The position numbers and the translations under genes were made by a program. Of a stretch of 64,000 nucleotides of DNA, positions 1 through 63,818 are shown piece after piece. This DNA is from Acanthornis magna (taxonomy: Eukaryota; Chordata; Aves; Passeriformes; Acanthizidae), in NCBI GenBank assembly GCA_036785705.1, contig JAWUZG010000005.1:62001-126000 (forward strand). The letters run 5' to 3'. The notes under the pieces are model-generated. The model was not told where the DNA came from. It saw nothing but the letters and a program-made list of their open reading frames with translations, and made no database searches. How positions within the stretch are numbered: position 1 is the first letter of the stretch; each line of letters begins with the position of its first letter.

Positions 1-78
1 ACGGGGGACGTGTGACAATGGGGGCAGCCATAAAAGGCCCCAGCAGGCAACGCTGCCCCGGCAGAGCCCGGGCAAGTG
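1..78 (+). promoter_or_regulatory. Core promoter (partial) and noncoding exon 1, copy 1
   Basis: A TATA-like ATAAAAGG lies at 30-37, so transcription probably starts near 55-65. Exon 1 ends at 78 before a GTGAGT donor at 79-84. The intron runs 79-377 and ends in a pyrimidine-rich CTCCTGCAG acceptor three bases before the coding ATG. The intron holds six CTG units at 208-225. The CRE-like TGACATCA seen in the other copies is cut off by the window edge. TSS and splicing are inferred from consensus motifs only. Confidence 0.65.
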
Positions 79-380
79 GTGAGTGCACACGTGGTGGGGA
101 GGCTGGGCTGGACAAGGGCTGGGGCGGGAGCGCTGCACCCGGGGGTGGGTTCTCCCCGTGCGTGCAGGGACAGCCCCTCCCGGGGGAACCTTGGGCAGGG
201 CACAGTGCTGCTGCTGCTGCTGCTGGGGCAGTGGGACAGGCCTTGCTTCCTGCCAGCTCTCTGGGGCCCTTTCCTTCCTGCTCTCGCCTGACCCCTGTCA
301 TTCCCACCCCTGCTGCCCCTGCGGCCAGCTGCCTCCCTGCCAGCCCCACTCAAGGCCTTCTCTCCATGCTCCTGCAGACC

Positions 381-1976
381 ATGGAGTGCTGGATGTTCCT
401 GGTCCTTGCTTTGAGATTCCTCATTCAGTACCCGCAGCCCGTGGGCGACGGTTTGGATGAGGAGACACTGCGTCTGCACCTGGAGGTGCGTGCAAAGCGC
501 CTGGAAGAGGAGAGGATTCGGCTGGAACGGACGTTGGAGCAGCTCAGACAGATGCATAGTGGCAGGGCCTGGGGAGACCTGCTCTGGTCTCCCTTGCAGC
601 ACTGGCAGCTCTGGGCATTTGCTGTGCTCCTGGTCCTTCTCTTGGCCGTCTGGTTTATGTGGAGGAAAAGGAGCCTGAGAAGAGAGGAGCATGAAGAAGA
701 AAACGATGGTGCAAATGAAGAGGAAGTGAGAAATATGGATGCAAATGAAGAAGAAGAGGTAGGAAATGAAGAGGAAGTCATCAATGAGGCTGCAAATGCA
801 GAGAACAACGAAGTCGCAAATGAAGTCGCAGTAGAAGACCATGATGCTGATGATAACATTGGAAGGATTGTAATGGAGCGCATCCAGTGGCCTGCACGGA
901 ACCTGCGGACAGGCTGTGAGTGGACACATATGCTGGTAGACTATTTCATCTATTACTCTGGATGCGCCGAGTCAAACAGTTTCTACCCAGTGCTGCAGCA
1001 AGCCATCCCGGTGGGCAGTGCCTTTGAAGGTTGGAGTCCCCGTGAGGAGGATGTTGAATATCAATTTCTTGTACCCATGACTCCTCCCCGAGGGCACTCC
1101 TTCCACCTGGAGCTGTCCACTGCGAGGCAGAGGCACCTTAGGCATTTCTGTGTCCGTGTGGAGCTGGAGTGCACCTGCAGCAGAAAGCGGCGGCGTAAGA
1201 ACATGCTGTGCTTCCTCCACCACCCCGAGGAGGAGCTGAGGAGGAATCGAGATCCCAGCCTCCTTCGCACCCTGTGCACTGACTCCTACCTTGATGTGGA
1301 GAAAACAGGCCGCTGGTTCTACCAACTGATGAGGGCAACCTGGCCAGCATTGCCTCGCTCACACAATTGGCATTTAGTGCCGCTGCCCTCCAGACGCTCC
1401 TGCCAAATCAAGGTGACCAACGGCAGCGAATCCTTCTGCATTGAGCTGATGTTTGGGGTGCAGCGAGGCGACTCAGACATCTTCGTTACCAGCCAGTCTG
1501 GAGAGCCCTACACCCTAACAACAGCCTGGCTTGAGTCCTACGCCGTGGCAGAGATGAAGTTCTTCAGGCACATCGCCAGGTATGCTCCCCCTGAGAGTGT
1601 GCACCTCAAATGCCTGCAGTTCTTCACACAACTTCAGCTGGGCCTAGGCTTTTACACCTATATCATAAAGACCATTGTCATGCACCTGCTGAATGTCCTA
1701 CCCGAGTCACAGTGGTGCAGGAGATATTTCGTCAAGCGAATTTTGGATATCAGAAGGGAGCTGCGCGTTAGCCTGAAAAGAAAATGCCTCAATCACTTTA
1801 TTCTGGGCAACCAGAGGCTTCCTCTGGGGATCAATTTGCCCCAGGATGTCCAAACGGCTGACACATTCAATCTCTTCCATCACCTGGTGACGGATCCTGT
1901 TGCCCACTCCTGTGCCATGAGTGATTACCGCATTCTGAAAGAGCGGCTCAGAAGAATCCTTGACATTGACAACTGA
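381..1976 (+). CDS. ITPRIPL1: ITPRIPL1-like membrane protein, copy 1 (intact, 531 aa)
   Basis: The protein belongs to the ITPRIP branch of Mab-21 / cGAS-fold proteins, which are single-pass membrane proteins; mammalian ITPRIPL1 is about 550 aa, close to the 531 aa here. Residues 1-16 form a hydrophobic signal sequence (WMFLVLAL), followed by YPQPVGD. Residues 26-58 are a charged coiled coil (LEEERIRLERTLEQL). Residues 75-94 are a transmembrane helix (AFAVLLVLLLAVWF) followed by RKR. Residues 102-158 are a Glu/Asn-rich repeat and about 180-531 the Mab-21-like domain. Nucleotidyltransferase-type landmarks are G212-S213, E222/D224 and possibly E355; enzymatic activity is not shown. The start is chosen because ACCATGG (Kozak-like) sits directly after the splice acceptor. 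An in-frame upstream extension to 12 begins before the TATA-like box and is unlikely. Copy-specific residues are H59, H281, C353, V503 and C511. Human ITPRIPL1 has been reported as a CD3-epsilon ligand; whether that applies here is unknown. Confidence 0.87.
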   Translation: MECWMFLVLALRFLIQYPQPVGDGLDEETLRLHLEVRAKRLEEERIRLERTLEQLRQMHSGRAWGDLLWSPLQHWQLWAFAVLLVLLLAVWFMWRKRSLRREEHEEENDGANEEEVRNMDANEEEEVGNEEEVINEAANAENNEVANEVAVEDHDADDNIGRIVMERIQWPARNLRTGCEWTHMLVDYFIYYSGCAESNSFYPVLQQAIPVGSAFEGWSPREEDVEYQFLVPMTPPRGHSFHLELSTARQRHLRHFCVRVELECTCSRKRRRKNMLCFLHHPEEELRRNRDPSLLRTLCTDSYLDVEKTGRWFYQLMRATWPALPRSHNWHLVPLPSRRSCQIKVTNGSESFCIELMFGVQRGDSDIFVTSQSGEPYTLTTAWLESYAVAEMKFFRHIARYAPPESVHLKCLQFFTQLQLGLGFYTYIIKTIVMHLLNVLPESQWCRRYFVKRILDIRRELRVSLKRKCLNHFILGNQRLPLGINLPQDVQTADTFNLFHHLVTDPVAHSCAMSDYRILKERLRRILDIDN

Positions 1977-2751
1977 AAGAGGTTCTCCTGCACAGGGCTG
2001 TGCTTGTGATGCTGGCAGCTGGCGTCAGAGAACCAGCTCCTAGTACAGATCTTGTCCTTCAAGGAGAAGAGGATGCGTGCAGAGACTCTGGCAAAGGTCC
2101 CACAGCCTCTCCTGCTGCCTCAGCAGCTGGAGGGCCACAGGAGGGTTTACTCTACCTCCTCGTATCATTCCGTTTTCCAAAACAAGTCACCCAGACTGGC
2201 ATGAAACCCTACTGGCATATGAACTTTCCCACTCCTAGGAATGCAAATGAAGAGAGCACATGCCTTCCACGCATGGCCAAAGTCACCAAACCCATCCTGT
2301 GCCATGCTACTGTTCCAGCCCTTTGAGAAGGGCCAAACATTACAGGATGAAGGAAGTGGGAATGTGGGGCAGAAAATGACCAGAAACCAGGGAAAAATAG
2401 ACTGAGAGGAAAAACTAGCTCTGTTTGCCCACGATCAGACAATGGGCTGTGCCTCTCCTTTTCCCCGGAAAGGACACCTTTATGTCAGCATTGTACCAAT
2501 TGTGTTGGAGCTGACCTGAAATCTTGTATAGATAAGTATCTAGATGTCTATTTCCTAGATTAATAATATAATGTATACATATTATATATTCTATAGTTCA
2601 TTAGTTATCATATAAAATATTAAAATAAAACAAAACCATATACTAAAATAAATAATATCAAAAGTAAGAAATATGTAATTAGTATATCAAGATAAATAAT
2701 AATGATAAATATTGGAAGATGTAAATACAATTAAAGAATAACAATATAGCA

Positions 2752-2968
2752 CGTATTTAGTGTTGTCACTGTCTGTTGGGACACATAGTAACGCTCTTAG
2801 TGCATTTATGTCTGGAAAGATTTCAATGAAATAGATCTATTTATTGCCCAGATAACACATATATCAGATATTACATCTTTAATCTTATTTTTGTATGCAA
2901 GTAAAGCCGTATCTAGTGTCACTGTCTGTTGGGACACATAGTAATGCTCTAGAGTTAGTGCATTTATG
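2752..2968 (+). repeat. 60-bp direct repeat pair in the AT-rich 3' UTR, unit 1
   Basis: Two near-identical segments, 2752-2810 and 2908-2968, lie 156 bp apart; both contain CTGTTGGGACACATAGTAA and end in TTAGTGCATTTATG. They flank the right part of a strongly AT-rich island (about 2520-2900) that contrasts with the GC-rich coding exon. In this unit both members read CACTGTCTGTT; in every later unit the second member reads CACTCTCTGTT. Confidence 0.85.
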
Positions 2969-3002
2969 AGTGGCAAGCCTGAAAATGCTTTGCTCTTGCT
3001 TC

Positions 3003-3008
3003 AATAAA
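3003..3008 (+). terminator. Poly(A) signal AATAAA, copy 1
   Basis: The AATAAA is followed about 18 bp later by a GT-rich stretch (TGTGGATGGTG), the usual arrangement of a vertebrate cleavage site, giving a 3' UTR of roughly 1050 nt. Earlier AATAAA hexamers in the AT-rich island (for example near 2633 and 2648) lack such a downstream element and could be weaker alternative sites. Confidence 0.65.
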
Positions 3009-3184
3009 ATGCAACATTGCAGAATGTGGATGGTGCAAGCCTTTCTTGATGTCAGCCAGACCTATGAGTAAATCTCAGGAGCTGTGAATCTGGCCTGGTG
3101 AACAGGCTCGTTGAACTCAAGCAAACTTGCAGTGCTGAAGTGGTTCTAATCAGAACTTAAGCCCAGCTGCCAGGGGCCGCTGTG

Positions 3185-3559
3185 ATCTCAGAATCACAGA
3201 GCGCCTGGTCTTGGAAGGCTCCTTGCAAATGCTCTTGTTGCAAGCCTGCTGCCATGGGCAGGGACACCTTGCGCTAGGCCAGGTTGCTCCAAGGCGCATG
3301 CAGCCTGGCCTGGAACGCTGCCAGCCATGGGGCAGCCACAGCTTCTGTGGGCAGCGTGGGCCAGGGCCTCAGCAGCCTCAGAGGCCAGAATTCCTTCCAC
3401 ACCTGCGGCCTAAGCCCTAAGTGGCGTCAGCGGGAAGCCACTGTCCCTGGGGCTGTCCCTGCAGGCCCTTGCAAACAGCCCCTGCGCAGGTCTCTTGGGC
3501 TCCCTTCAGGCACTGAAAGGCCACCGCAGGAAGGTGCCCCCGCAGAAGGCCTTGGAGAG
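3185..3559 (-). mobile_element. CR1 LINE 3'-region fragment, unit 1
   Basis: Read on the + strand this matches, from memory of the family, the reverse complement of the avian CR1 3' region. Landmarks are AGAATCACAGAG, TTGGAAGG, CTGCCATGGGCAGGGACACC, CTAGGCCAGGTTGCTCCAA, CAGCCTGGCCTGGAACGCTG, then GGCCCTTGCAAACAG, CTCCCTTCAGGCACTGAAAGG. The element therefore lies on the minus strand with its 3' end at about 3185. It is old and 5'-truncated, and no reverse transcriptase reading frame remains. The stretch past 3560 no longer looks like CR1. Confidence 0.8.
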
Positions 3560-4280
3560 CACTGGGGGCCAGCAGTGCCACCATCGGGGCAGCAAGCAGG
3601 GCCTGGCGCGGCCGTCGGGGCGGGAGGGCACAGGGCACAGGGCGCTGAGGCCCTGCCAGCCGCAGCAGGGAGCCTTGGGCTGCGGCCGGCAGACAGCCAC
3701 CCACGGGAGATGCGTGCAGCAGCAAGGACGCAGGGCTTCTGATGTGTTAGAAAGCAGAGAAGAGCTTGAGAATGGCCACGCGAGGATCAGGGTGTCTCCC
3801 TGTGCGGAAAAACAATGCGACAGCAGAGGTTTATGGGTGGAAAAGACACAGAGGAGTCCTGTACCTTGAATGGAAGAAAGGGGAGAGGCCATGGGGCATT
3901 TCCTATGGGATCTCTCACACTGTTGGAGGACACAGCCTCCTTTTTATCCTCATTTCCCTGGTGCATCACTTTCCTCCTTCCCCCATTGGCTGAGGTACAT
4001 GGCAGGTGCAGATTTCCCAAATTGCCTTTCTTTTGCCCCTTCTAAAATGCAGCCTCTTCTTTTTCTCTTTTTTTCTTTTTAATATATCTAACCAAACACT
4101 ATTCACAATTCTGCTAAGACTTTATTGTTTTTCTCTAAGTTCAGGAATTTAACATGGCCATGGCTGAGCAACAGTCTGTGCCCAGGGAAATGGCTGAGTC
4201 AGCAGCCTCAGAAAGATTTCAAAGTCATGTGGATTTGGCATTCGGGGCCCTGGCTGATTGGTGCAGAAGGCAATGGTAGG
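3560..4280. other. Intergenic spacer without recognised gene (pattern shared by all units)
   Basis: Bases 3560-3740 are GC-rich with repeated GCAGCA and GGGCACAGGG words; 3740-4030 is mixed sequence; 4040-4080 is a pyrimidine tract (CTTCTTTTTCTCTTTTTTTC) followed by AATATATC. No convincing coding frame, RNA gene or known repeat is visible. A reverse-strand AATAAA (TTTATT at 4121-4126) has no gene ending at it. The same sequence fills the corresponding spacer of every later unit. Confidence 0.6.
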
Positions 4281-4422
4281 TTTGAGGTTGGACTGTGTGA
4301 TCTTCAGGGTCTTTTCCAACCTTGTTGACTGCGAGATTTCAGTGTAGCTCAGCTAGTGTGGAGTCAAGGCTTGAACTCAATGGTCCTCAAGGGTGTCTTC
4401 CAGCATGGATCTCTATGAGATT
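4281..4422 (+). mobile_element. Two CR1-like 3' tails in tandem, unit 1
   Basis: Bases 4281-4340 (GAGGTTGGACTGTGTGATCT, then GGTCTTTTCCAACC) and 4366-4422 (CTTGAACTCAATGGTCCTCA, then GTCTTCCAGCATGGATCTCT) each resemble the sense-strand CR1 3' end, where GGTTGGACTAGATGATCT... TTCCAACC precedes the ATTCTATG octamers. Each is only about 60 bp and degenerate. They end about 170 bp before the next promoter, so they are the nearest upstream repeat DNA to every downstream copy. Confidence 0.62.
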
Positions 4423-4593
4423 GCCAACGGAGGGCAGCTGGTAAGAAAGACAAAAGAAGGAGCAAAGGAAGTTCTTTGAAGAAGGTTCCCTCAAAGGCAG
4501 CCTTAAGCAGTACAGCAGGGCCACTGGGAGCGGCTGAGCTGGGGTGGGGACAAAGAGCGCGGCTGGCCTGGCTGTGATGTGCTGTGGCACCTG

Positions 4594-4678
4594 TGACATC
4601 ACGGGGGACGTGTGACAATGGGGGCAGCCATAAAAGGCCCCAGCAGGCAACGCTGCCCCGGCAGAGCCCGGGCAAGTG
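4594..4678 (+). promoter_or_regulatory. Core promoter and noncoding exon 1, copy 2
   Basis: This is the first complete promoter in the window. A CRE-like TGACATCA (one change from TGACGTCA) lies at 4594-4601, a GGACGTGTGACA follows, and the TATA-like ATAAAAGG is at 4630-4637. Exon 1 ends at 4678 before GTGAGT; the intron is 4679-4977 with six CTG units. A CRE-like site next to a TATA-like box is a layout seen in some CREM-driven testis genes, which is only a suggestion here. Confidence 0.68.
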
Positions 4679-4980
4679 GTGAGTGCACACGTGGTGGGGA
4701 GGCTGGGCTGGACAAGGGCTGGGGCGGGAGCGCTGCACCCGGGGGTGGGTTCTCCCCGTGCGTGCAGGGACAGCCCCTCCCGGGGGAACCTTGGGCAGGG
4801 CACAGTGCTGCTGCTGCTGCTGCTGGGGCAGTGGGACAGGCCTTGCTTCCTGCCAGCTCTCTGGGGCCCTTTCCTTCCTGCTCTCGCCTGACCCCTGTCA
4901 TTCCCACCCCTGCTGCCCCTGCGGCCAGCTGCCTCCCTGCCAGCCCCACTCAAGGCCTTCTCTCCATGCTCCTGCAGACC

Positions 4981-6576
4981 ATGGAGTGCTGGATGTTCCT
5001 GGTCCTTGCTTTGAGATTCCTCATTCAGTACCCGCAGCCCGTGGGCGACGGTTTGGATGAGGAGACACTGCGTCTGCACCTGGAGGTGCGTGCAAAGCGC
5101 CTGGAAGAGGAGAGGATTCGGCTGGAACGGACGTTGGAGCAGCTCAGACAGATGCATAGTGGCAGGGCCTGGGGAGACCTGCTCTGGTCTCCCTTGCAGC
5201 ACTGGCAGCTCTGGGCATTTGCTGTGCTCCTGGTCCTTCTCTTGGCCGTCTGGTTTATGTGGAGGAAAAGGAGCCTGAGAAGAGAGGAGCATGAAGAAGA
5301 AAACGATGGTGCAAATGAAGAGGAAGTGAGAAATATGGATGCAAATGAAGAAGAAGAGGTAGGAAATGAAGAGGAAGTCATCAATGAGGCTGCAAATGCA
5401 GAGAACAACGAAGTCGCAAATGAAGTCGCAGTAGAAGACCATGATGCTGATGATAACATTGGAAGGATTGTAATGGAGCGCATCCAGTGGCCTGCACGGA
5501 ACCTGCGGACAGGCTGTGAGTGGACACATATGCTGGTAGACTATTTCATCTATTACTCTGGATGCGCCGAGTCAAACAGTTTCTACCCAGTGCTGCAGCA
5601 AGCCATCCCGGTGGGCAGTGCCTTTGAAGGTTGGAGTCCCCGTGAGGAGGATGTTGAATATCAATTTCTTGTACCCATGACTCCTCCCCGAGGGCACTCC
5701 TTCCACCTGGAGCTGTCCACTGCGAGGCAGAGGCACCTTAGGCATTTCTGTGTCCGTGTGGAGCTGGAGTGCACCTGCAGCAGAAAGCGGCGGCGTAAGA
5801 ACATGCTGTGCTTCCTCCACCACCCCGAGGAGGAGCTGAGGAGGAATCGAGATCCCAGCCTCCTTCGCACCCTGTGCACTGACTCCTACCTTGATGTGGA
5901 GAAAACAGGCCGCTGGTTCTACCAACTGATGAGGGCAACCTGGCCAGCATTGCCTCGCTCACACAATTGGCATTTAGTGCCGCTGCCCTCCAGACGCTCC
6001 TGCCAAATCAAGGTGACCAACGGCAGCGAATCCTTCTGCATTGAGCTGATGTTTGGGGTGCAGCGAGGCGACTCAGACATCTTCGTTACCAGCCAGTCTG
6101 GAGAGCCCTACACCCTAACAACAGCCTGGCTTGAGTCCTACGCCGTGGCAGAGATGAAGTTCTTCAGGCACATCGCCAGGTATGCTCCCCCTGAGAGTGT
6201 GCACCTCAAATGCCTGCAGTTCTTCACACAACTTCAGCTGGGCCTAGGCTTTTACACCTATATCATAAAGACCATTGTCATGCACCTGCTGAATGTCCTA
6301 CCCGAGTCACAGTGGTGCAGGAGATATTTCGTCAAGCGAATTTTGGATATCAGAAGGGAGCTGCGCGTTAGCCTGAAAAGAAAATGCCTCAATCACTTTA
6401 TTCTGGGCAACCAGAGGCTTCCTCTGGGGATCAATTTGCCCCAGGATGTCCAAACGGCTGACACATTCAATCTCTTCCATCACCTGGTGACGGATCCTGT
6501 TGCCCACTCCTGTGCCATGAGTGATTACCGCATTCTGAAAGAGCGGCTCAGAAGAATCCTTGACATTGACAACTGA
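4981..6576 (+). CDS. ITPRIPL1: ITPRIPL1-like membrane protein, copy 2 (intact, 531 aa)
   Basis: The encoded protein appears identical to that of copy 1: it has H59, H281, C353, V503 and C511. Copies 1 and 2 are the only ones with H59, C353 and six rather than seven intronic CTG units, so they form their own lineage at the left side of the window. C353 lies two residues before E355, the candidate third acidic position of the nucleotidyltransferase-like site; all other copies have Arg there. The start follows the acceptor at 4977 by three bases. All domains are complete and nothing suggests decay. Confidence 0.87.
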   Translation: MECWMFLVLALRFLIQYPQPVGDGLDEETLRLHLEVRAKRLEEERIRLERTLEQLRQMHSGRAWGDLLWSPLQHWQLWAFAVLLVLLLAVWFMWRKRSLRREEHEEENDGANEEEVRNMDANEEEEVGNEEEVINEAANAENNEVANEVAVEDHDADDNIGRIVMERIQWPARNLRTGCEWTHMLVDYFIYYSGCAESNSFYPVLQQAIPVGSAFEGWSPREEDVEYQFLVPMTPPRGHSFHLELSTARQRHLRHFCVRVELECTCSRKRRRKNMLCFLHHPEEELRRNRDPSLLRTLCTDSYLDVEKTGRWFYQLMRATWPALPRSHNWHLVPLPSRRSCQIKVTNGSESFCIELMFGVQRGDSDIFVTSQSGEPYTLTTAWLESYAVAEMKFFRHIARYAPPESVHLKCLQFFTQLQLGLGFYTYIIKTIVMHLLNVLPESQWCRRYFVKRILDIRRELRVSLKRKCLNHFILGNQRLPLGINLPQDVQTADTFNLFHHLVTDPVAHSCAMSDYRILKERLRRILDIDN

Positions 6577-7351
6577 AAGAGGTTCTCCTGCACAGGGCTG
6601 TGCTTGTGATGCTGGCAGCTGGCGTCAGAGAACCAGCTCCTAGTACAGATCTTGTCCTTCAAGGAGAAGAGGATGCGTGCAGAGACTCTGGCAAAGGTCC
6701 CACAGCCTCTCCTGCTGCCTCAGCAGCTGGAGGGCCACAGGAGGGTTTACTCTACCTCCTCGTATCATTCCGTTTTCCAAAACAAGTCACCCAGACTGGC
6801 ATGAAACCCTACTGGCATATGAACTTTCCCACTCCTAGGAATGCAAATGAAGAGAGCACATGCCTTCCACGCATGGCCAAAGTCACCAAACCCATCCTGT
6901 GCCATGCTACTGTTCCAGCCCTTTGAGAAGGGCCAAACATTACAGGATGAAGGAAGTGGGAATGTGGGGCAGAAAATGACCAGAAACCAGGGAAAAATAG
7001 ACTGAGAGGAAAAACTAGCTCTGTTTGCCCACGATCAGACAATGGGCTGTGCCTCTCCTTTTCCCCGGAAAGGACACCTTTATGTCAGCATTGTACCAAT
7101 TGTGTTGGAGCTGACCTGAAATCTTGTATAGATAAGTATCTAGATGTCTATTTCCTAGATTAATAATATAATGTATACATATTATATATTCTATAGTTCA
7201 TTAGTTATCATATAAAATATTAAAATAAAACAAAACCATATACTAAAATAAATAATATCAAAAGTAAGAAATATGTAATTAGTATATCAAGATAAATAAT
7301 AATGATAAATATTGGAAGATGTAAATACAATTAAAGAATAACAATATAGCA

Positions 7352-7568
7352 CGTATTTAGTGTTGTCACTGTCTGTTGGGACACATAGTAACGCTCTTAG
7401 TGCATTTATGTCTGGAAAGATTTCAATGAAATAGATCTATTTATTGCCCAGATAACACATATATCAGATATTACATCTTTAATCTTATTTTTGTATGCAA
7501 GTAAAGCCGTATCTAGTGTCACTCTCTGTTGGGACACATAGTAATGCTCTAGAGTTAGTGCATTTATG
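7352..7568 (+). repeat. 60-bp direct repeat pair in the AT-rich 3' UTR, unit 2
   Basis: The first member reads CACTGTCTGTT and the second CACTCTCTGTT, so from this unit on the two members differ at one diagnostic base. Confidence 0.83.
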
Positions 7569-7602
7569 AGTGGCAAGCCTGAAAATGCTTTGCTCTTGCT
7601 TC

Positions 7603-7608
7603 AATAAA
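7603..7608 (+). terminator. Poly(A) signal AATAAA, copy 2
   Basis: AATAAA with the GT-rich element downstream, about 1.03 kb after the stop codon at 6576. Confidence 0.65.
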
Positions 7609-7784
7609 ATGCAACATTGCAGAATGTGGATGGTGCAAGCCTTTCTTGATGTCAGCCAGACCTATGAGTAAATCTCAGGAGCTGTGAATCTGGCCTGGTG
7701 AACAGGCTCGTTGAACTCAAGCAAACTTGCAGTGCTGAAGTGGTTCTAATCAGAACTTAAGCCCAGCTGCCAGGGGCCGCTGTG

Positions 7785-8159
7785 ATCTCAGAATCACAGA
7801 GCGCCTGGTCTTGGAAGGCTCCTTGCAAATGCTCTTGTTGCAAGCCTGCTGCCATGGGCAGGGACACCTTGCGCTAGGCCAGGTTGCTCCAAGGCGCATG
7901 CAGCCTGGCCTGGAACGCTGCCAGCCATGGGGCAGCCACAGCTTCTGTGGGCAGCGTGGGCCAGGGCCTCAGCAGCCTCAGAGGCCAGAATTCCTTCCAC
8001 ACCTGCGGCCTAAGCCCTAAGTGGCGTCAGCGGGAAGCCACTGTCCCTGGGGCTGTCCCTGCAGGCCCTTGCAAACAGCCCCTGCGCAGGTCTCTTGGGC
8101 TCCCTTCAGGCACTGAAAGGCCACCGCAGGAAGGTGCCCCCGCAGAAGGCCTTGGAGAG
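7785..8159 (-). mobile_element. CR1 LINE 3'-region fragment, unit 2
   Basis: Same relic as in unit 1. The only unit-specific change I noticed nearby is CAGGGTGCTGAGG at about 8240 where other units have CAGGGCGCTGAGG, a CpG transition. Confidence 0.8.
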
Positions 8160-8880
8160 CACTGGGGGCCAGCAGTGCCACCATCGGGGCAGCAAGCAGG
8201 GCCTGGCGCGGCCGTCGGGGCGGGAGGGCACAGGGCACAGGGTGCTGAGGCCCTGCCAGCCGCAGCAGGGAGCCTTGGGCTGCGGCCGGCAGACAGCCAC
8301 CCACGGGAGATGCGTGCAGCAGCAAGGACGCAGGGCTTCTGATGTGTTAGAAAGCAGAGAAGAGCTTGAGAATGGCCACGCGAGGATCAGGGTGTCTCCC
8401 TGTGCGGAAAAACAATGCGACAGCAGAGGTTTATGGGTGGAAAAGACACAGAGGAGTCCTGTACCTTGAATGGAAGAAAGGGGAGAGGCCATGGGGCATT
8501 TCCTATGGGATCTCTCACACTGTTGGAGGACACAGCCTCCTTTTTATCCTCATTTCCCTGGTGCATCACTTTCCTCCTTCCCCCATTGGCTGAGGTACAT
8601 GGCAGGTGCAGATTTCCCAAATTGCCTTTCTTTTGCCCCTTCTAAAATGCAGCCTCTTCTTTTTCTCTTTTTTTCTTTTTAATATATCTAACCAAACACT
8701 ATTCACAATTCTGCTAAGACTTTATTGTTTTTCTCTAAGTTCAGGAATTTAACATGGCCATGGCTGAGCAACAGTCTGTGCCCAGGGAAATGGCTGAGTC
8801 AGCAGCCTCAGAAAGATTTCAAAGTCATGTGGATTTGGCATTCGGGGCCCTGGCTGATTGGTGCAGAAGGCAATGGTAGG

Positions 8881-9022
8881 TTTGAGGTTGGACTGTGTGA
8901 TCTTCAGGGTCTTTTCCAACCTTGTTGACTGCGAGATTTCAGTGTAGCTCAGCTAGTGTGGAGTCAAGGCTTGAACTCAATGGTCCTCAAGGGTGTCTTC
9001 CAGCATGGATCTCTATGAGATT
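8881..9022 (+). mobile_element. Two CR1-like 3' tails in tandem, unit 2
   Basis: Both 60-bp tails are preserved. Just upstream the unit reads AGATTTCAAAG, a variant shared with units 1 and 12; the others read AGATTCCAAAG. Confidence 0.6.
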
Positions 9023-9193
9023 GCCAACGGAGGGCAGCTGGTAAGAAAGACAAAAGAAGGAGCAAAGGAAGTTCTTTGAAGAAGGTTCCCTCAAAGGCAG
9101 CCTTAAGCAGTACAGCAGGGCCACTGGGAGCGGCTGAGCTGGGGTGGGGACAAAGAGCGCGGCTGGCCTGGCTGTGATGTGCTGTGGCACCTG

Positions 9194-54884: not shown

Positions 54885-55026
54885 TTTGAGGTTGGACTGT
54901 GTGATCTTCAGGGTCTTTTCCAACCTTGTTGACTGCGAGATTTCAGTGTAGCTCAGCTAGTGTGGAGTCAAGGCTTGAACTCAATGGTCCTCAAGGGTGT
55001 CTTCCAGCATGGATCTCTATGAGATT
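54885..55026 (+). mobile_element. Two CR1-like 3' tails in tandem, unit 12
   Basis: Both tails are present. Just upstream the unit has AGATTTCAAAG, otherwise found only in units 1 and 2. Confidence 0.6.
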
Positions 55027-55197
55027 GCCAACGGAGGGCAGCTGGTAAGAAAGACAAAAGAAGGAGCAAAGGAAGTTCTTTGAAGAAGGTTCCCTCAAAG
55101 GCAGCCTTAAGCAGTACAGCAGGGCCACTGGGAGCGGCTGAGCTGGGGTGGGGACAAAGAGCGCGGCTGGCCTGGCTGTGATGTGCTGTGGCACCTG

Positions 55198-55282
55198 TGA
55201 CATCACGGGGGACGTGTGACAATGGGGGCAGCCATAAAAGGCCCCAGCAGGCAACGCTGCCCCGGCAGAGCCCGGGCAAGTG
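55198..55282 (+). promoter_or_regulatory. Core promoter and noncoding exon 1, copy 13
   Basis: CRE-like TGACATCA at 55198-55205, ATAAAAGG at 55234-55241, donor at 55283, intron 55283-55584 with seven CTG units. Confidence 0.68.
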
Positions 55283-55587
55283 GTGAGTGCACACGTGGTG
55301 GGGAGGCTGGGCTGGACAAGGGCTGGGGCGGGAGCGCTGCACCCGGGGGTGGGTTCTCCCCGTGCGTGCAGGGACAGCCCCTCCCGGGGGAACCTTGGGC
55401 AGGGCACAGTGCTGCTGCTGCTGCTGCTGCTGGGGCAGTGGGACAGGCCTTGCTTCCTGCCAGCTCTCTGGGGCCCTTTCCTTCCTGCTCTCGCCTGACC
55501 CCTGTCATTCCCACCCCTGCTGCCCCTGCGGCCAGCTGCCTCCCTGCCAGCCCCACTCAAGGCCTTCTCTCCATGCTCCTGCAGACC

Positions 55588-57183
55588 ATGGAGTGCTGGA
55601 TGTTCCTGGTCCTTGCTTTGAGATTCCTCATTCAGTACCCGCAGCCCGTGGGCGACGGTTTGGATGAGGAGACACTGCGTCTGCACCTGGAGGTGCGTGC
55701 AAAGCGCCTGGAAGAGGAGAGGATTCGGCTGGAACGGACGTTGGAGCAGCTCAGACAGATGCAGAGTGGCAGGGCCTGGGGAGACCTGCTCTGGTCTCCC
55801 TTGCAGCACTGGCAGCTCTGGGCATTTGCTGTGCTCCTGGTCCTTCTCTTGGCTGTCTGGTTTATGTGGAGGAAAAGGAGCCTGAGAAGAGAGGAGCATG
55901 AAGAAGAAAACGATGGTGCAAATGAAGAGGAAGTGAGAAATATGGATGCAAATGAAGAAGAAGAGGTAGGAAATGAAGAGGAAGTCATCAATGAGGCTGC
56001 AAATGCAGAGAACAACGAAGTCGCAAATGAAGTCGCAGTAGAAGACCATGATGCTGATGATAACATTGGAAGGATTGTAATGGAGCGCATCCAGTGGCCT
56101 GCCCGGAACCTGCGGACAGGCTGTGAGTGGACACATATGCTGGTAGACTATTTCATCTATTACTCTGGATGCGCCGAGTCAAACAGTTTCTACCCAGTGC
56201 TGCAGCAAGCCATCCCGGTGGGCAGTGCCTTTGAAGGTTGGAGTCCCCGTGAGGAGGATGTTGAATATCAATTTCTTGTACCCATGACTCCTCCCCGAGG
56301 GCACTCCTTCCACCTGGAGCTGTCCACTGCGAGGCAGAGGCACCTTAGGCATTTCTGTGTCCGTGTGGAGCTGGAGTGCACCTGCAGCAGAAAGCGGCGG
56401 CGTAAGAACATGCTGTGCTTCCTCCACCAGCCCGAGGAGGAGCTGAGGAGGAATCGAGATCCCAGCCTCCTTCGCACCCTGTGCACTGACTCCTACCTTG
56501 ATGTGGAGAAAACAGGCTGCTGGTTCTACCAACTGATGAGGGCAACCTGGCCAGCATTGCCTCGCTCACACAATTGGCATTTAGTGCCGCTGCCCTCCAG
56601 ACGCTCCTGCCAAATCAAGGTGACCAACGGCAGCGAATCCTTCCGCATTGAGCTGATGTTTGGGGTGCAGCGAGGCGACTCAGACATCTTCGTTACCAGC
56701 CAGTCTGGAGAGCCCTACACCCTAACAACAGCCTGGCTTGAGTCCTACGCCGTGGCAGAGATGAAGTTCTTCAGGCACATCGCCAGGTATGCTCCCCCTG
56801 AGAGTGTGCACCTCAAATGCCTGCAGTTCTTCACACAACTTCAGCTGGGCCTAGGCTTTTACACCTATATCATAAAGACCATTGTCATGCACCTGCTGAA
56901 TGTCCTACCCGAGTCACAGTGGTGCAGGAGATATTTCGTCAAGCGAATTTTGGATATCAGAAGGGAGCTGCGCGTTAGCCTGAAAAGAAAATGCCTCAAT
57001 CACTTTATTCTGGGCAACCAGAGGCTTCCTCTGGGGATCAATTTGCCCCAGGATGTCCAAATGGCTGACACATTCAATCTCTTCCATCACCTGGCGACGG
57101 ATCCTGTTGCCCACTCCTGTGCCATGAGTGATTACCGCATTCTGAAAGAGCGGCTCAGAAGAATCCTTGACATTGACAACTGA
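55588..57183 (+). CDS. ITPRIPL1: ITPRIPL1-like membrane protein, copy 13 (intact frame, R311C)
   Basis: The frame is complete. C311 (TGC for CGC) is unique and replaces the Arg of TGRWFYQL in the Mab-21-like domain, a motif that is otherwise invariant in the window, so this copy may be functionally impaired. M492 and A503 tie it to copy 12, as does the synonymous GCT for Ala89. Both unusual codons, at 311 and 492, are CpG transitions. Copies 12 and 13 thus form a pair, and copy 13 shows what copy 12 would look like without the insertions. Confidence 0.86.
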   Translation: MECWMFLVLALRFLIQYPQPVGDGLDEETLRLHLEVRAKRLEEERIRLERTLEQLRQMQSGRAWGDLLWSPLQHWQLWAFAVLLVLLLAVWFMWRKRSLRREEHEEENDGANEEEVRNMDANEEEEVGNEEEVINEAANAENNEVANEVAVEDHDADDNIGRIVMERIQWPARNLRTGCEWTHMLVDYFIYYSGCAESNSFYPVLQQAIPVGSAFEGWSPREEDVEYQFLVPMTPPRGHSFHLELSTARQRHLRHFCVRVELECTCSRKRRRKNMLCFLHQPEEELRRNRDPSLLRTLCTDSYLDVEKTGCWFYQLMRATWPALPRSHNWHLVPLPSRRSCQIKVTNGSESFRIELMFGVQRGDSDIFVTSQSGEPYTLTTAWLESYAVAEMKFFRHIARYAPPESVHLKCLQFFTQLQLGLGFYTYIIKTIVMHLLNVLPESQWCRRYFVKRILDIRRELRVSLKRKCLNHFILGNQRLPLGINLPQDVQMADTFNLFHHLATDPVAHSCAMSDYRILKERLRRILDIDN

Positions 57184-57958
57184 AAGAGGTTCTCCTGCAC
57201 AGGGCTGTGCTTGTGATGCTGGCAGCTGGCGTCAGAGAACCAGCTCCTAGTACAGATCTTGTCCTTCAAGGAGAAGAGGATGCGTGCAGAGACTCTGGCA
57301 AAGGTCCCACAGCCTCTCCTGCTGCCTCAGCAGCTGGAGGGCCACAGGAGGGTTTACTCTACCTCCTCGTATCATTCCGTTTTCCAAAACAAGTCACCCA
57401 GACTGGCATGAAACCCTACTGGCATATGAACTTTCCCACTCCTAGGAATGCAAATGAAGAGAGCACATGCCTTCCACGCATGGCCAAAGTCACCAAACCC
57501 ATCCTGTGCCATGCTACTGTTCCAGCCCTTTGAGAAGGGCCAAACATTACAGGATGAAGGAAGTGGGAATGTGGGGCAGAAAATGACCAGAAACCAGGGA
57601 AAAATAGACTGAGAGGAAAAACTAGCTCTGTTTGCCCACGATCAGACAATGGGCTGTGCCTCTCCTTTTCCCCGGAAAGGACACCTTTATGTCAGCATTG
57701 TACCAATTGTGTTGGAGCTGACCTGAAATCTTGTATAGATAAGTATCTAGATGTCTATTTCCTAGATTAATAATATAATGTATACATATTATATATTCTA
57801 TAGTTCATTAGTTATCATATAAAATATTAAAATAAAACAAAACCATATACTAAAATAAATAATATCAAAAGTAAGAAATATGTAATTAGTATATCAAGAT
57901 AAATAATAATGATAAATATTGGAAGATGTAAATACAATTAAAGAATAACAATATAGCA

Positions 57959-58175
57959 CGTATTTAGTGTTGTCACTCTCTGTTGGGACACATAGTAACG
58001 CTCTTAGTGCATTTATGTCTGGAAAGATTTCAATGAAATAGATCTATTTATTGCCCAGATAACACATATATCAGATATTACATCTTTAATCTTATTTTTG
58101 TATGCAAGTAAAGCCGTATCTAGTGTCACTCTCTGTTGGGACACATAGTAATGCTCTAGAGTTAGTGCATTTATG
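57959..58175 (+). repeat. 60-bp direct repeat pair in the AT-rich 3' UTR, unit 13
   Basis: Both members read CACTCTCTGTT, as in units 11 and 12. Confidence 0.83.
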
Positions 58176-58209
58176 AGTGGCAAGCCTGAAAATGCTTTGC
58201 TCTTGCTTC

Positions 58210-58215
58210 AATAAA
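58210..58215 (+). terminator. Poly(A) signal AATAAA, copy 13
   Basis: AATAAA with the GT-rich element downstream; GGAGTTGTG follows, as in units 3, 4 and 14. Confidence 0.65.
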
Positions 58216-58391
58216 ATGCAACATTGCAGAATGTGGATGGTGCAAGCCTTTCTTGATGTCAGCCAGACCTATGAGTAAATCTCAGGAGTTGTGAATCTGG
58301 CCTGGTGAACAGGCTCGTTGAACTCAAGCAAACTTGCAGTGCTGAAGTGGTTCTAATCAGAACTTAAGCCCAGCTGCCAGGGGCCGCTGTG

Positions 58392-58766
58392 ATCTCAGAA
58401 TCACAGAGCGCCTGGTCTTGGAAGGCTCCTTGCAAATGCTCTTGTTGCAAGCCTGCTGCCATGGGCAGGGACACCTTGCGCTAGGCCAGGTTGCTCCAAG
58501 GCGCATGCAGCCTGGCCTGGAACGCTGCCAGCCATGGGGCAGCCACAGCTTCTGTGGGCAGCGTGGGCCAGGGCCTCAGCAGCCTCAGAGGCCAGAATTC
58601 CTTCCACACCTGCGGCCTAAGCCCTAAGTGGCGTCAGCGGGAAGCCACTGTCCCTGGGGCTGTCCCTGCAGGCCCTTGCAAACAGCCCCTGCGCAGGTCT
58701 CTTGGGCTCCCTTCAGGCACTGAAAGGCCACCGCAGGAAGGTGCCCCCGCAGAAGGCCTTGGAGAG
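58392..58766 (-). mobile_element. CR1 LINE 3'-region fragment, unit 13
   Basis: Unchanged CR1 piece; no unit-specific difference noticed. Confidence 0.8.
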
Positions 58767-59487
58767 CACTGGGGGCCAGCAGTGCCACCATCGGGGCAGC
58801 AAGCAGGGCCTGGCGCGGCCGTCGGGGCGGGAGGGCACAGGGCACAGGGCGCTGAGGCCCTGCCAGCCGCAGCAGGGAGCCTTGGGCTGCGGCCGGCAGA
58901 CAGCCACCCACGGGAGATGCGTGCAGCAGCAAGGACGCAGGGCTTCTGATGTGTTAGAAAGCAGAGAAGAGCTTGAGAATGGCCACGCGAGGATCAGGGT
59001 GTCTCCCTGTGCGGAAAAACAATGCGACAGCAGAGGTTTATGGGTGGAAAAGACACAGAGGAGTCCTGTACCTTGAATGGAAGAAAGGGGAGAGGCCATG
59101 GGGCATTTCCTATGGGATCTCTCACACTGTTGGAGGACACAGCCTCCTTTTTATCCTCATTTCCCTGGTGCATCACTTTCCTCCTTCCCCCATTGGCTGA
59201 GGTACATGGCAGGTGCAGATTTCCCAAATTGCCTTTCTTTTGCCCCTTCTAAAATGCAGCCTCTTCTTTTTCTCTTTTTTTCTTTTTAATATATCTAACC
59301 AAACACTATTCACAATTCTGCTAAGACTTTATTGTTTTTCTCTAAGTTCAGGAATTTAACATGGCCATGGCTGAGCAACAGTCTGTGCCCAGGGAAATGG
59401 CTGAGTCAGCAGCCTCAGAAAGATTCCAAAGTCATGTGGATTTGGCATTCGGGGCCCTGGCTGATTGGTGCAGAAGGCAATGGTAGG

Positions 59488-59629
59488 TTTGAGGTTGGAC
59501 TGTGTGATCTTCATGGTCTTTTCCAACCTTGTTGACTGCGAGATTTCAGTGTAGCTCAGCTAGTGTGGAGTCAAGGCTTGAACTCAATGGTCCTCAAGGG
59601 TGTCTTCCAGCATGGATCTCTATGAGATT
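59488..59629 (+). mobile_element. Two CR1-like 3' tails in tandem, unit 13
   Basis: The first tail has a unit-specific change (GATCTTCATGGTC for GATCTTCAGGGTC). This is the last occurrence of the tails, because unit 14 ends before reaching them. Confidence 0.6.
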
Positions 59630-59800
59630 GCCAACGGAGGGCAGCTGGTAAGAAAGACAAAAGAAGGAGCAAAGGAAGTTCTTTGAAGAAGGTTCCCTCA
59701 AAGGCAGCCTTAAGCAGTACAGCAGGGCCACTGGGAGCGGCTGAGCTGGGGTGGGGACAAAGAGCGCGGCTGGCCTGGCTGTGATGTGCTGTGGCACCTG

Positions 59801-59885
59801 TGACATCACGGGGGACGTGTGACAATGGGGGCAGCCATAAAAGGCCCCAGCAGGCAACGCTGCCCCGGCAGAGCCCGGGCAAGTG
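59801..59885 (+). promoter_or_regulatory. Core promoter and noncoding exon 1, copy 14
   Basis: CRE-like TGACATCA at 59801-59808, ATAAAAGG at 59837-59844, donor at 59886, intron 59886-60187 with seven CTG units. Confidence 0.68.
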
Positions 59886-60190
59886 GTGAGTGCACACGTG
59901 GTGGGGAGGCTGGGCTGGACAAGGGCTGGGGCGGGAGCGCTGCACCCGGGGGTGGGTTCTCCCCGTGCGTGCAGGGACAGCCCCTCCCGGGGGAACCTTG
60001 GGCAGGGCACAGTGCTGCTGCTGCTGCTGCTGCTGGGGCAGTGGGACAGGCCTTGCTTCCTGCCAGCTCTCTGGGGCCCTTTCCTTCCTGCTCTCGCCTG
60101 ACCCCTGTCATTCCCACCCCTGCTGCCCCTGCGGCCAGCTGCCTCCCTGCCAGCCCCACTCAAGGCCTTCTCTCCATGCTCCTGCAGACC

Positions 60191-61786
60191 ATGGAGTGCT
60201 GGATGTTCCTGGTCCTTGCTTTGAGATTCCTCATTCAGTACCCGCAGCCCGTGGGCGACGGTTTGGATGAGGAGACACTGCGTCTGCACCTGGAGGTGCG
60301 TGCAAAGCGCCTGGAAGAGGAGAGGATTCGGCTGGAACGGACGTTGGAGCAGCTCAGACAGATGCAGAGTGGCAGGGCCTGGGGAGACCTGCTCTGGTCT
60401 CCCTTGCAGCACTGGCAGCTCTGGGCATTTGCTGTGCTCCTGGTCCTTCTCTTGGCCGTCTGGTTTATGTGGAGGAAAAGGAGCCTGAGAAGAGAGGAGC
60501 ATGAAGAAGAAAACGATGGTGCAAATGAAGAGGAAGTGAGAAATATGGATGCAAATGAAGAAGAAGAGGTAGGAAATGAAGAGGAAGTCATCAATGAGGC
60601 TGCAAATGCAGAGAACAACGAAGTCGCAAATGAAGTCGCAGTAGAAGACCATGATGCTGATGATAACATTGGAAGGATTGTAATGGAGCGCATCCAGTGG
60701 CCTGCACGGAACCTGCGGACAGGCTGTGAGTGGACACATATGCTGGTAGACTATTTCATCTATTACTCTGGATGCGCCGAGTCAAACAGTTTCTACCCAG
60801 TGCTGCAGCAAGCCATCCCGGTGGGCAGTGCCTTTGAAGGTTGGAGTCCCCGTGAGGAGGATGTTGAATATCAATTTCTTGTACCCATGACTCCTCCCCG
60901 AGGGCACTCCTTCCACCTGGAGCTGTCCACTGCGAGGCAGAGGCACCTTAGGCATTTCTGTGTCCGTGTGGAGCTGGAGTGCACCTGCAGCAGAAAGCGG
61001 CGGCGTAAGAACATGCTGTGCTTCCTCCACCAGCCCGAGGAGGAGCTGAGGAGGAATCGAGATCCCAGCCTCCTTCGCACCCTGTGCACTGACTCCTACC
61101 TTGATGTGGAGAAAACAGGCCGCTGGTTCTACCAACTGATGAGGGCAACCTGGCCAGCATTGCCTCGCTCACACAATTGGCATTTAGTGCCGCTGCCCTC
61201 CAGACGCTCCTGCCAAATCAAGGTGACCAACGGCAGCGAATCCTTCCGCATTGAGCTGATGTTTGGGGTGCAGCGAGGCGACTCAGACATCTTCGTTACC
61301 AGCCAGTCTGGAGAGCCCTACACCCTAACAACAGCCTGGCTTGAGTCCTACGCCGTGGCAGAGATGAAGTTCTTCAGGCACATCGCCAGGTATGCTCCCC
61401 CTGAGAGTGTGCACCTCAAATGCCTGCAGTTCTTCACACAACTTCAGCTGGGCCTAGGCTTTTACACCTATATCATAAAGACCATTGTCATGCACCTGCT
61501 GAATGTCCTACCCGAGTCACAGTGGTGCAGGAGATATTTCGTCAAGCGAATTTTGGATATCAGAAGGGAGCTGCGCGTTAGCCTGAAAAGAAAATGCCTC
61601 AATCACTTTATTCTGGGCAACCAGAGGCTTCCTCTGGGGATCAATTTGCCCCAGGATGTCCAAACGGCTGACACATTCAATCTCTTCCATCACCTGGCGA
61701 CGGATCCTGTTGCCCACTCCTGTGCCATGAGTGATTACCGCATTCTGAAAGAGCGGCTCAGAAGAATCCTTGACATTGACAACTGA
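60191..61786 (+). CDS. ITPRIPL1: ITPRIPL1-like membrane protein, copy 14 (intact, 531 aa, last in array)
   Basis: The frame is complete and encodes the consensus protein of copies 6, 7, 9 and 10 (Q281, R353, T492, A503, C511), although Ala172 is GCA as in copies 1-3, 8 and 11. As the terminal unit it has gathered more private noncoding changes than the inner ones: CCCAGATTGGC at about 62001, GATTTTAATG at about 62630, CAGGGCAAAGGG at about 63441, CCCCGGTGC at about 63767 and GAGGCACATGG at about 63803. That fits reduced homogenisation at an array edge. Confidence 0.88.
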   Translation: MECWMFLVLALRFLIQYPQPVGDGLDEETLRLHLEVRAKRLEEERIRLERTLEQLRQMQSGRAWGDLLWSPLQHWQLWAFAVLLVLLLAVWFMWRKRSLRREEHEEENDGANEEEVRNMDANEEEEVGNEEEVINEAANAENNEVANEVAVEDHDADDNIGRIVMERIQWPARNLRTGCEWTHMLVDYFIYYSGCAESNSFYPVLQQAIPVGSAFEGWSPREEDVEYQFLVPMTPPRGHSFHLELSTARQRHLRHFCVRVELECTCSRKRRRKNMLCFLHQPEEELRRNRDPSLLRTLCTDSYLDVEKTGRWFYQLMRATWPALPRSHNWHLVPLPSRRSCQIKVTNGSESFRIELMFGVQRGDSDIFVTSQSGEPYTLTTAWLESYAVAEMKFFRHIARYAPPESVHLKCLQFFTQLQLGLGFYTYIIKTIVMHLLNVLPESQWCRRYFVKRILDIRRELRVSLKRKCLNHFILGNQRLPLGINLPQDVQTADTFNLFHHLATDPVAHSCAMSDYRILKERLRRILDIDN

Positions 61787-62561
61787 AAGAGGTTCTCCTG
61801 CACAGGGCTGTGCTTGTGATGCTGGCAGCTGGCGTCAGAGAACCAGCTCCTAGTACAGATCTTGTCCTTCAAGGAGAAGAGGATGCGTGCAGAGACTCTG
61901 GCAAAGGTCCCACAGCCTCTCCTGCTGCCTCAGCAGCTGGAGGGCCACAGGAGGGTTTACTCTACCTCCTCGTATCATTCCGTTTTCCAAAACAAGTCAC
62001 CCAGATTGGCATGAAACCCTACTGGCATATGAACTTTCCCACTCCTAGGAATGCAAATGAAGAGAGCACATGCCTTCCACGCATGGCCAAAGTCACCAAA
62101 CCCATCCTGTGCCATGCTACTGTTCCAGCCCTTTGAGAAGGGCCAAACATTACAGGATGAAGGAAGTGGGAATGTGGGGCAGAAAATGACCAGAAACCAG
62201 GGAAAAATAGACTGAGAGGAAAAACTAGCTCTGTTTGCCCACGATCAGACAATGGGCTGTGCCTCTCCTTTTCCCCGGAAAGGACACCTTTATGTCAGCA
62301 TTGTACCAATTGTGTTGGAGCTGACCTGAAATCTTGTATAGATAAGTATCTAGATGTCTATTTCCTAGATTAATAATATAATGTATACATATTATATATT
62401 CTATAGTTCATTAGTTATCATATAAAATATTAAAATAAAACAAAACCATATACTAAAATAAATAATATCAAAAGTAAGAAATATGTAATTAGTATATCAA
62501 GATAAATAATAATGATAAATATTGGAAGATGTAAATACAATTAAAGAATAACAATATAGCA

Positions 62562-62778
62562 CGTATTTAGTGTTGTCACTGTCTGTTGTGACACATAGTA
62601 ACGCTCTTAGTGCATTTATGTCTGGAAAGATTTTAATGAAATAGATCTATTTATTGCCCAGATAACACATATATCAGATATTACATCTTTAATCTTATTT
62701 TTGTATGCAAGTAAAGCCGTATCTAGTGTCACTCTCTGTTGGGACACATAGTAATGCTCTAGAGTTAGTGCATTTATG
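62562..62778 (+). repeat. 60-bp direct repeat pair in the AT-rich 3' UTR, unit 14
   Basis: The first member reads CACTGTCTGTTGTGACA as in units 8 and 9; the second reads CACTCTCTGTT. The CAAAA deletion of units 8 and 9 is absent. Confidence 0.83.
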
Positions 62779-62812
62779 AGTGGCAAGCCTGAAAATGCTT
62801 TGCTCTTGCTTC

Positions 62813-62818
62813 AATAAA
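62813..62818 (+). terminator. Poly(A) signal AATAAA, copy 14
   Basis: AATAAA with the GT-rich element downstream, about 1.03 kb after the stop at 61786. Confidence 0.65.
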
Positions 62819-62994
62819 ATGCAACATTGCAGAATGTGGATGGTGCAAGCCTTTCTTGATGTCAGCCAGACCTATGAGTAAATCTCAGGAGTTGTGAATC
62901 TGGCCTGGTGAACAGGCTCGTTGAACTCAAGCAAACTTGCAGTGCTGAAGTGGTTCTAATCAGAACTTAAGCCCAGCTGCCAGGGGCCGCTGTG

Positions 62995-63369
62995 ATCTCA
63001 GAATCACAGAGCGCCTGGTCTTGGAAGGCTCCTTGCAAATGCTCTTGTTGCAAGCCTGCTGCCATGGGCAGGGACACCTTGCGCTAGGCCAGGTTGCTCC
63101 AAGGCGCATGCAGCCTGGCCTGGAACGCTGCCAGCCATGGGGCAGCCACAGCTTCTGTGGGCAGCGTGGGCCAGGGCCTCAGCAGCCTCAGAGGCCAGAA
63201 TTCCTTCCACACCTGCGGCCTAAGCCCTAAGTGGCGTCAGCGGGAAGCCACTGTCCCTGGGGCTGTCCCTGCAGGCCCTTGCAAACAGCCCCTGCGCAGG
63301 TCTCTTGGGCTCCCTTCAGGCACTGAAAGGCCACCGCAGGAAGGTGCCCCCGCAGAAGGCCTTGGAGAG
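62995..63369 (-). mobile_element. CR1 LINE 3'-region fragment, unit 14
   Basis: The CR1 piece is unchanged. In the spacer after it the unit reads TGTGCAGAAAAAC at about 63612, shared only with unit 5. Confidence 0.8.
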
Positions 63370-63818
63370 CACTGGGGGCCAGCAGTGCCACCATCGGGGC
63401 AGCAAGCAGGGCCTGGCGCGGCCGTCGGGGCGGGAGGGCACAGGGCAAAGGGCGCTGAGGCCCTGCCAGCCGCAGCAGGGAGCCTTGGGCTGCGGCCGGC
63501 AGACAGCCACCCACGGGAGATGCGTGCAGCAGCAAGGACGCAGGGCTTCTGATGTGTTAGAAAGCAGAGAAGAGCTTGAGAATGGCCACGCGAGGATCAG
63601 GGTGTCTCCCTGTGCAGAAAAACAATGCGACAGCAGAGGTTTATGGGTGGAAAAGACACAGAGGAGTCCTGTACCTTGAATGGAAGAAAGGGGAGAGGCC
63701 ATGGGGCATTTCCTATGGGATCTCTCACACTGTTGGAGGACACAGCCTCCTTTTTATCCTCATTTCCCCGGTGCATCACTTTCCTCCTTCCCCCATTGGC
63801 TGAGGCACATGGAAGGTG

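Follow-up and report, generated by a model that had tools for sequence, protein, structure and literature searches.

The 64-kb window analysed here (C5:62001-126000) comes from an assembly of 1,482,288,618 bases in 1515 contigs, and is occupied almost throughout by a tandem array of ITPRIPL1-like genes. This array (array A) extends onto further contigs, and a diverged paralogous array (array B) is found elsewhere; together they comprise >100 copies at two separate loci in one assembly. We think it probable that the arrays represent a lineage-specific amplification of the avian ITPRIPL1-like family in an oscine songbird, involving two loci, the movement of a copy from the GPR135 side, and selection at the level of the array.

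The window contains 14 head-to-tail units spaced 4597–4607 bp apart (~4.6 kb), with pairwise identities of 99.65–100% (gap columns excluded). A chance origin of the repeat is excluded by the presence of 3047 distinct 31-mers that each occur exactly 14 times in the 64-kb window. A first-pass annotation of this DNA had described 14 near-identical 4.6-kb units, eleven of them with an uninterrupted 531-codon frame, and the spacing, identity and 31-mer count agree with that description, as do the reading frames (Table 1). The start point of a unit was our choice, and unit 4 served as the reference unit for comparisons. Thirteen of the 14 units are full length, with unit 1 lacking one base at the window edge, and unit 14 ends at ~63818, where unrelated DNA begins. 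Units 6, 7 and 10 are identical in sequence, and a 5-bp deletion is common to units 6–10.

Array A spans C5:1-125818, C23:8722492-8765253 and, as far as it was read, contig C1290 (100,377 bp, about half of which was inspected). As it continues to the first base of C5, the figure of fourteen is an effect of the window edge, and the earlier view of 14 copies at one locus gives way to many more copies at two loci. Gene matches numbered 27 on C5, nine at the end of C23 and 21 on C1290, and one further C1290 unit was found by reading, outside the search matches, bringing that contig to 22 and the total to 58. The copy number of array A is, thus, firmly 36 (C5 and C23) and up to 58 with C1290. Full frames are open in 21/27 copies on C5, 6/9 on C23 and 13/22 on C1290 (the last figure being taken from the search matches), which amounts to 27/36 without C1290 and 40/58 with it; the remaining nine copies of C5 and C23 are broken. 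Numerous near-identical tandem copies with mostly open frames are also what marks songbird ampliconic arrays of the PAK3L type.

C1290 matches C23 on one side and C5 on the other: over 3852 bp its start is 99.84% identical to the C23 end, and over 10 kb its end is 99.9% identical to the right-hand portion of C5. These matches suggest that C1290 may be the other haplotype. The presence of the array at both contig ends, in a common orientation, points to C23 and C5 as probable neighbours. Comparison of C1290:70001-80000 with C5 gave 10–22 gap openings per 10 kb among the matches shown, suggestive of a lower-quality stretch. At 1.48 Gb, the assembly is large for a bird genome, and retained haplotypes or repeats may inflate the copy counts.

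Array B is a diverged paralogue of array A with at least 83 copies. A search with a B protein returned 336 candidates, of which the best 83 were scored, a choice that favours intact copies and under-counts broken ones; all 83 match over residues 1–519, with 74 on C97 (2,641,810-3,028,547) and nine on C1011. The C97 copies follow a 4607-bp grid of ~85 places with a few irregular steps, and two consecutive units that we compared were 99.7% identical. Among the scored copies, 55/83 have no stop and 28 of the 74 on C97 carry one TGA. In the TGA copy that was read (C97:2782806-2782905), this codon is the terminator also used by array A; in the other type the TGA is lost and the frame reads six residues further to the next stop (giving RKRFSCTELCL in total after DTDN). 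The two types, of which one copy each was read, are grouped in long blocks. Besides array B, C97 carries three single relatives, at 2.32, 3.03 and 3.66 Mb.

To place these genes within the family, a first tree was built from 121 sequences (119 of 120 listed proteins and two window proteins) and a second from 127 (the same with six further proteins from this assembly); the 1131 aa Kagu protein P0002 was excluded from both, and columns filled in ≤60% of rows were trimmed. In the second tree, the eight sequences of this assembly (three single, three array-B and two window) form one clade with a support of 0.988, sister to a Malurus (fairy-wren) protein, the one Malurus protein in the set, at 0.968. 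The first tree also pairs the window with Malurus (0.979). Within the clade, the window gene adjoins the 3.66 Mb single copy of C97 (0.888).

The gene neighbourhoods of the two arrays differ. On C97, the first copy of array B lies 0.13 Mb away from GPR135 (at 2.51 Mb), whose product shares 99% identity with GPR135 of the blackbird Agelaius tricolor; the contig also has three clustered homeobox exons at 2.02–2.10 Mb, which we take to be SIX genes. GPR135 and ITPRIPL1-like genes are also recorded on contigs of equal size in Taeniopygia (65,033,001), Columba livia (6,447,186), Hirundo (19,025,920; locus tags DUI87_24809, 24816 (ITPRIPL1-like) and 24819 (GPR135)), Patagioenas (19,851,911) and Nyctibius (105,205,653). 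Because the pairing recurs in these five other birds, the GPR135 neighbourhood may be the ancestral site of the family. On C23 (8.77 Mb), FLRT3 is found at 8.03 Mb (PDB FLRT3, E 1.9e-186), 0.69 Mb from array A. Two paired-type homeobox exons lie further off on this contig: one of OTX type at 2.05 Mb (E 8.1e-25 to OTX2) and one at 3.66 Mb that is presumably VSX1 (with ALX4, at 6e-15, as its best PDB match). We take the human counterparts of these markers to lie on 20p and 2p and the chicken ones on chromosome 3, and on that assumption array A is probably autosomal and derived. C5 also carries a leucine-rich-repeat exon at 2.24 Mb.

Sequence differences between units grow with their distance along the array. 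Spearman coefficients were 0.56 for the 26 full units of C5 and 0.48 for the 13 units of the window (0/2000 shuffles as high in either case), and 0.53 for the eight units of C23 (10/2000 shuffles). Moreover, all four combinations were present in 263 of 780 pairs of single-nucleotide polymorphism columns on C5. Since neighbours are most alike, variants have been recombined and three units are identical, array A shows the mark that unequal crossing-over and conversion leave; unequal exchange had been proposed from the window, and the distance-dependent differences and recombined variants bear it out. The same process has spread a frameshift allele, the one-base deletion of units 8 and 11, through array A: it is present in 5/27 copies on C5, in 3/9 of the C1290 copies examined for it, and in 0/9 on C23.

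Unit 4 and an array-B unit have diverged unevenly: least (3.7%) from the promoter through the first exon to the intron, and somewhat more in the spacer (5.7 and 5.2%). The two main coding parts are further apart, at 9.1 and 17.3%, and the first kilobase past the stop differs by 12.2%. Nonsynonymous divergence between A and B is 0.164 and synonymous divergence 0.156, a ratio of 1.05. In a simulation of 247 unconstrained changes, 7.7 stops arose on average and none of 2000 runs was stop-free; with 124 changes, corresponding to half of them on one lineage, the average was 4.3 stops and 1.45% of runs were stop-free. We do not claim simple positive selection, because synonymous sites are raised too. 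The pattern is compatible with each of three causes, namely conversion of flanking DNA between the loci, an older coding lineage in array B, and rapid adaptive change.

From these observations, we propose that array A arose by amplification of a copy that had moved from the GPR135 neighbourhood to the site on the FLRT3 side. Unequal crossing-over and gene conversion, whose footprint comes from array A, would have kept both arrays near-uniform while the number of units drifted. Selection would then act on the product of the array and not on each copy; as coding sequence diverges fast between the arrays while the frames stay open, the product may be dose-dependent and rapidly evolving.

Several observations weigh against this interpretation. 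Coding variation within array A comprises 18 nonsynonymous changes (one of them a stop) and 10 synonymous, against a neutral ratio of 2.56:1 at a transition weight of 4, and little constraint is, therefore, visible copy by copy. This count used 36 full-length units out of 46 units and part-units (26 from C5, eight from C23 and two from C1290), a set distinct from the 36 genes (27 and nine) of C5 and C23. The spread of the frameshift allele within array A counts in the same direction. For selection on dosage, which the first-pass annotation had raised, the observations pull both ways, as this allele has spread whereas frames have stayed open from one array to the other. The A–B ratio near 1 could reflect relaxation or a mosaic origin, because synonymous divergence is high as well, and the noncoding kilobase after the stop has diverged along with the coding parts. 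The contrast between spacer and coding sequence is weaker when unit 4 is compared with the three single copies (coding 7.8–11.3%, upstream 3.4–4.2%, kilobase after the stop 8.2–13.6% and spacer 5.2–7.9% where the alignment holds), with nonsynonymous to synonymous ratios of 0.67–0.77. The direction of movement hangs on the single support of 0.888. ITPRIPL1-like copies are also listed on other contigs (Taeniopygia 82,218,670; Columba 84,824,678), and the family may therefore have had old sites besides the one at GPR135. Finally, the copy number and the order C23–C1290–C5 depend on the assembly.

The frequencies of the frameshift allele, the nine broken copies and a within-array ratio of 1.8 are what a neutral runaway array would leave behind, in which a gene-sized satellite expands and homogenizes by unequal crossing-over with the genes as passengers. 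We regard this as rather unlikely, since frames have stayed open across 16% A–B divergence, a result reached in few of the simulated runs even with half of the changes on one lineage; all 83 scored copies of array B are full length over the query (in a sample that favours intact copies), the TGA that was read being the normal terminator; and core residues are invariant across 63 aligned proteins. Contigs break within the array (it includes the start of C5, the end of C23 and all of C1290 that was read), part of C1290 shows many single-base gaps relative to C5, and the size of the assembly may reflect retained haplotypes, which could indicate that a mis-assembled graph has multiplied a few true copies. 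Such an artefact is very unlikely: across the 46 units and part-units 165 columns vary, in blocks and with a similarity that depends on unit order, which is not how copies of a single sequence would look. In addition, no second full copy of the 4 kb to the right of array A (C5:126001-130000) was found in the assembly, the other matches being to a common repeat inside this stretch, and the second, diverged array is organized alike.

An ampliconic locus that is sex-linked (PAK3L on the zebra finch Z being the model) or restricted to the germline is improbable. Array A runs into the 8.77-Mb contig that carries FLRT3, the OTX-type exon and the other paired-type exon, markers whose chromosomes we recall as above and from which sex-linkage of array A looks unlikely. 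Three clustered DM-domain exons, which we take to be the Z-linked DMRT group, sit on a different contig, C121. In its favour, a preprint describes a zebra finch Z ampliconic cluster (cluster 8) in which an ITPRIPL1-like gene is duplicated along with PAK3L (PMC13060935). In Myzomela honeyeaters, ~86% of chromosome 5 is fused to the sex chromosomes (PMC11340901), and array B would be neo-sex-linked if the host were a honeyeater and C97 belonged to that part of chromosome 5. Our preferred interpretation remains amplification at two loci with selection at the level of the array.

The identification of the product as ITPRIPL1-like, made in the first-pass annotation, is upheld by the names under which its relatives are listed. 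In an alignment of the window protein with 62 of the 120 listed proteins, picked by hand, it is 53–67% identical to 61 avian proteins and 42% identical to one pigeon protein. The protein is predicted to cross the membrane once, with a short N-terminal part outside, an acidic linker, and a domain of cGAS/Mab-21 fold in the cytosol. The window protein has a hydrophobic N-terminus and a hydropathy peak at residues 75–95, as in the topology of ITPRIP and ITPRIPL1, and a structure model built from the unit 6 protein places helices at residues 2–15, 27–59 and 69–106; the topology is derived from hydropathy and this model. The model also bears out the cGAS/Mab-21-type fold that had been suggested for the cytosolic part. 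With Pfam Mab-21_C (PF20266), the window protein scored 23.4 bits, just below the curated cut-off of 24.1, while relatives scored 24.6 (Malurus), 25.9 (Zonotrichia), 61.9 (pigeon P0109) and 16.7 (Aphelocoma). A sequence search of PDB with one protein gave no match at 0.001, and a profile search reached cGAS-like receptor 1 at 0.0004. Identity to cGAS, cGAS-like receptors and MiD49/51 is 10–15% among the matches listed, and the array protein is predicted to be membrane-anchored.

G212 and S213, which form a GS motif, are present in all 63 aligned proteins, as is E222; D224 is present in 62/63 and E355 in 61/63 plus one D. We assume that E222, D224 and E355 correspond to the catalytic acids of cGAS. 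On that assumption the conserved acids are nucleotidyltransferase-like, and the putative centre looks intact. The single copy at 2.32 Mb of C97 (L026) has G at the E222 position and may be losing the putative active site. Pigeon P0109, with two stretches matching Mab-21_C, and the 1131 aa Kagu P0002 are perhaps fused or doubled copies.

Multicopy annotation of bird ITPRIPL1-like genes is already public, with several copies per species listed in many birds; these are the same family by sequence, and the amplification described here is large but not unprecedented. Four pigeon proteins, for example, are 99–100% identical and carry locus tags Q9966_010236 to 010239. Unlike those annotations, the copies here have been counted and mapped (36–58 and at least 83), with one array away from GPR135. 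In the open-licence papers, as far as their text was accessible, the sole description of amplified avian ITPRIPL1-like copies is one legend on the zebra finch Z (PMC13060935). The same source reports 200 copies of PAK3L on chromosome Z in 10 main clusters, four with frameshift issues. The likeness to PAK3L lies in the tandem amplification of a fast-evolving songbird gene, and in the ITPRIPL1-like gene within cluster 8; the PAK3L units have medians of 268 and 59 kb in two resolved tangles, in contrast to the 4.6-kb one-gene unit here, and PAK3L is Z-linked, whereas array A is probably autosomal. A conserved bird gene named ITPRIPL1 is reported to adjoin NCAPH (PMC8709867), so the array genes may be its paralogues.

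Human ITPRIPL1 (CD3L1) has been reported to occur in testis and to bind CD3-epsilon and NRP2 as their ligand (PMC13365830). The array protein resembles it in the name of its nearest relatives and in its ectodomain, membrane span and cytosolic part; the binding and testis data are for the human protein. Human ITPRIPL1 and zebra finch PAK3L serve as analogies for a guess that the genes are expressed in the germline or testis and take part in genetic conflict or immune privilege. A full arms-race gene in birds, combining a membrane-anchored cGAS-fold protein whose nucleotidyltransferase centre looks intact, >100 copies at two loci, coding sequence that outpaces most of the surrounding DNA in divergence while each array homogenizes, a germline role in meiotic or sperm-level conflict or in testis immune privilege, and a possibly neo-sex-linked array B, seems to us an unlikely conjunction.

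The two loci offer an instance of concerted evolution in which the copies of a protein-coding gene can be counted, and they tie a large and little-described avian gene family to a recurring location close to GPR135. Should the copies be expressed, they would form a natural dosage series of an immune-checkpoint relative with a cGAS-like domain. The conserved promoter and spacer beside diverged coding sequence make array-level selection directly testable.

In the first and last units of the window, the gene reads as a TATAAAAG (TATA) box, a short first exon with a GTGAGT donor, a CTGCAG acceptor directly before the ATG, and AATAAA ~1 kb past the stop. These promoter, splicing and polyadenylation elements are predictions made from the sequence. 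The deletion common to units 8 and 11 sits in GGAG, outside any homopolymer. Within 50597-51130 (~530 bp), unit 12 has four one-base insertions, the last of which disrupts the reading frame; these could be local sequence errors.

Table 1. Units of array A in the 64-kb window and their reading frames (CDS, coding sequence)
Feature	Position	Strand	Reading frame and remarks
Unit 1	1..4599	+	CDS 381-1976, 531 codons
Unit 2	4600..9199	+	CDS 4981-6576, 531 codons
Unit 3	9200..13803	+	CDS 9584-11179, 531 codons
Unit 4	13804..18406	+	CDS 14188-15783, 531 codons
Unit 5	18407..23009	+	CDS 18791-20386, 531 codons
Unit 6	23010..27607	+	CDS 23394-24989, 531 codons
Unit 7	27608..32205	+	CDS 27992-29587, 531 codons
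Unit 8	32206..36802	+	Frame from 32590, 185 codons (one-base deletion, as unit 11)
Unit 9	36803..41400	+	CDS 37187-38782, 531 codons
Unit 10	41401..45998	+	CDS 41785-43380, 531 codons
Unit 11	45999..50596	+	Frame from 46383, 185 codons (deletion as unit 8)
Unit 12	50597..55203	+	Frame from 50984, 104 codons (one-base insertion)
Unit 13	55204..59806	+	CDS 55588-57183, 531 codons
Unit 14	59807..63818	+	Cut at unit position ~4012; CDS 60191-61786, 531 codons
Right flank, non-unit DNA	63819..64000		Beyond array end

Two further frames were considered. A 655 aa sense frame through the intron begins upstream of the TATA box, and was not accepted as the real N-terminus. An antisense frame of 375–381 aa spans the unit junctions (window 4387-5529 on the minus strand, and similarly in 13 junctions) and is open in array B too; with a ratio of nonsynonymous to synonymous proportions (pN/pS) of 1.34 between arrays A and B it was rejected as coding, and is probably due to chance in GC-rich DNA. 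The open frames of the array flanks contained no gene recognizable by inspection, no Rfam match at the gathering score was found in window 59000-64000, and stretch L016 contained no direct or inverted repeats of ≥60 bp. Unit positions ~3190–3400 (window 3190-3400 in unit 1) resemble what we take to be the tail of a CR1 long interspersed nuclear element. A 187-bp piece from this CR1-like region matches C5:148721-148905 at 77%, and such pieces may have been the seeds of the first duplication.

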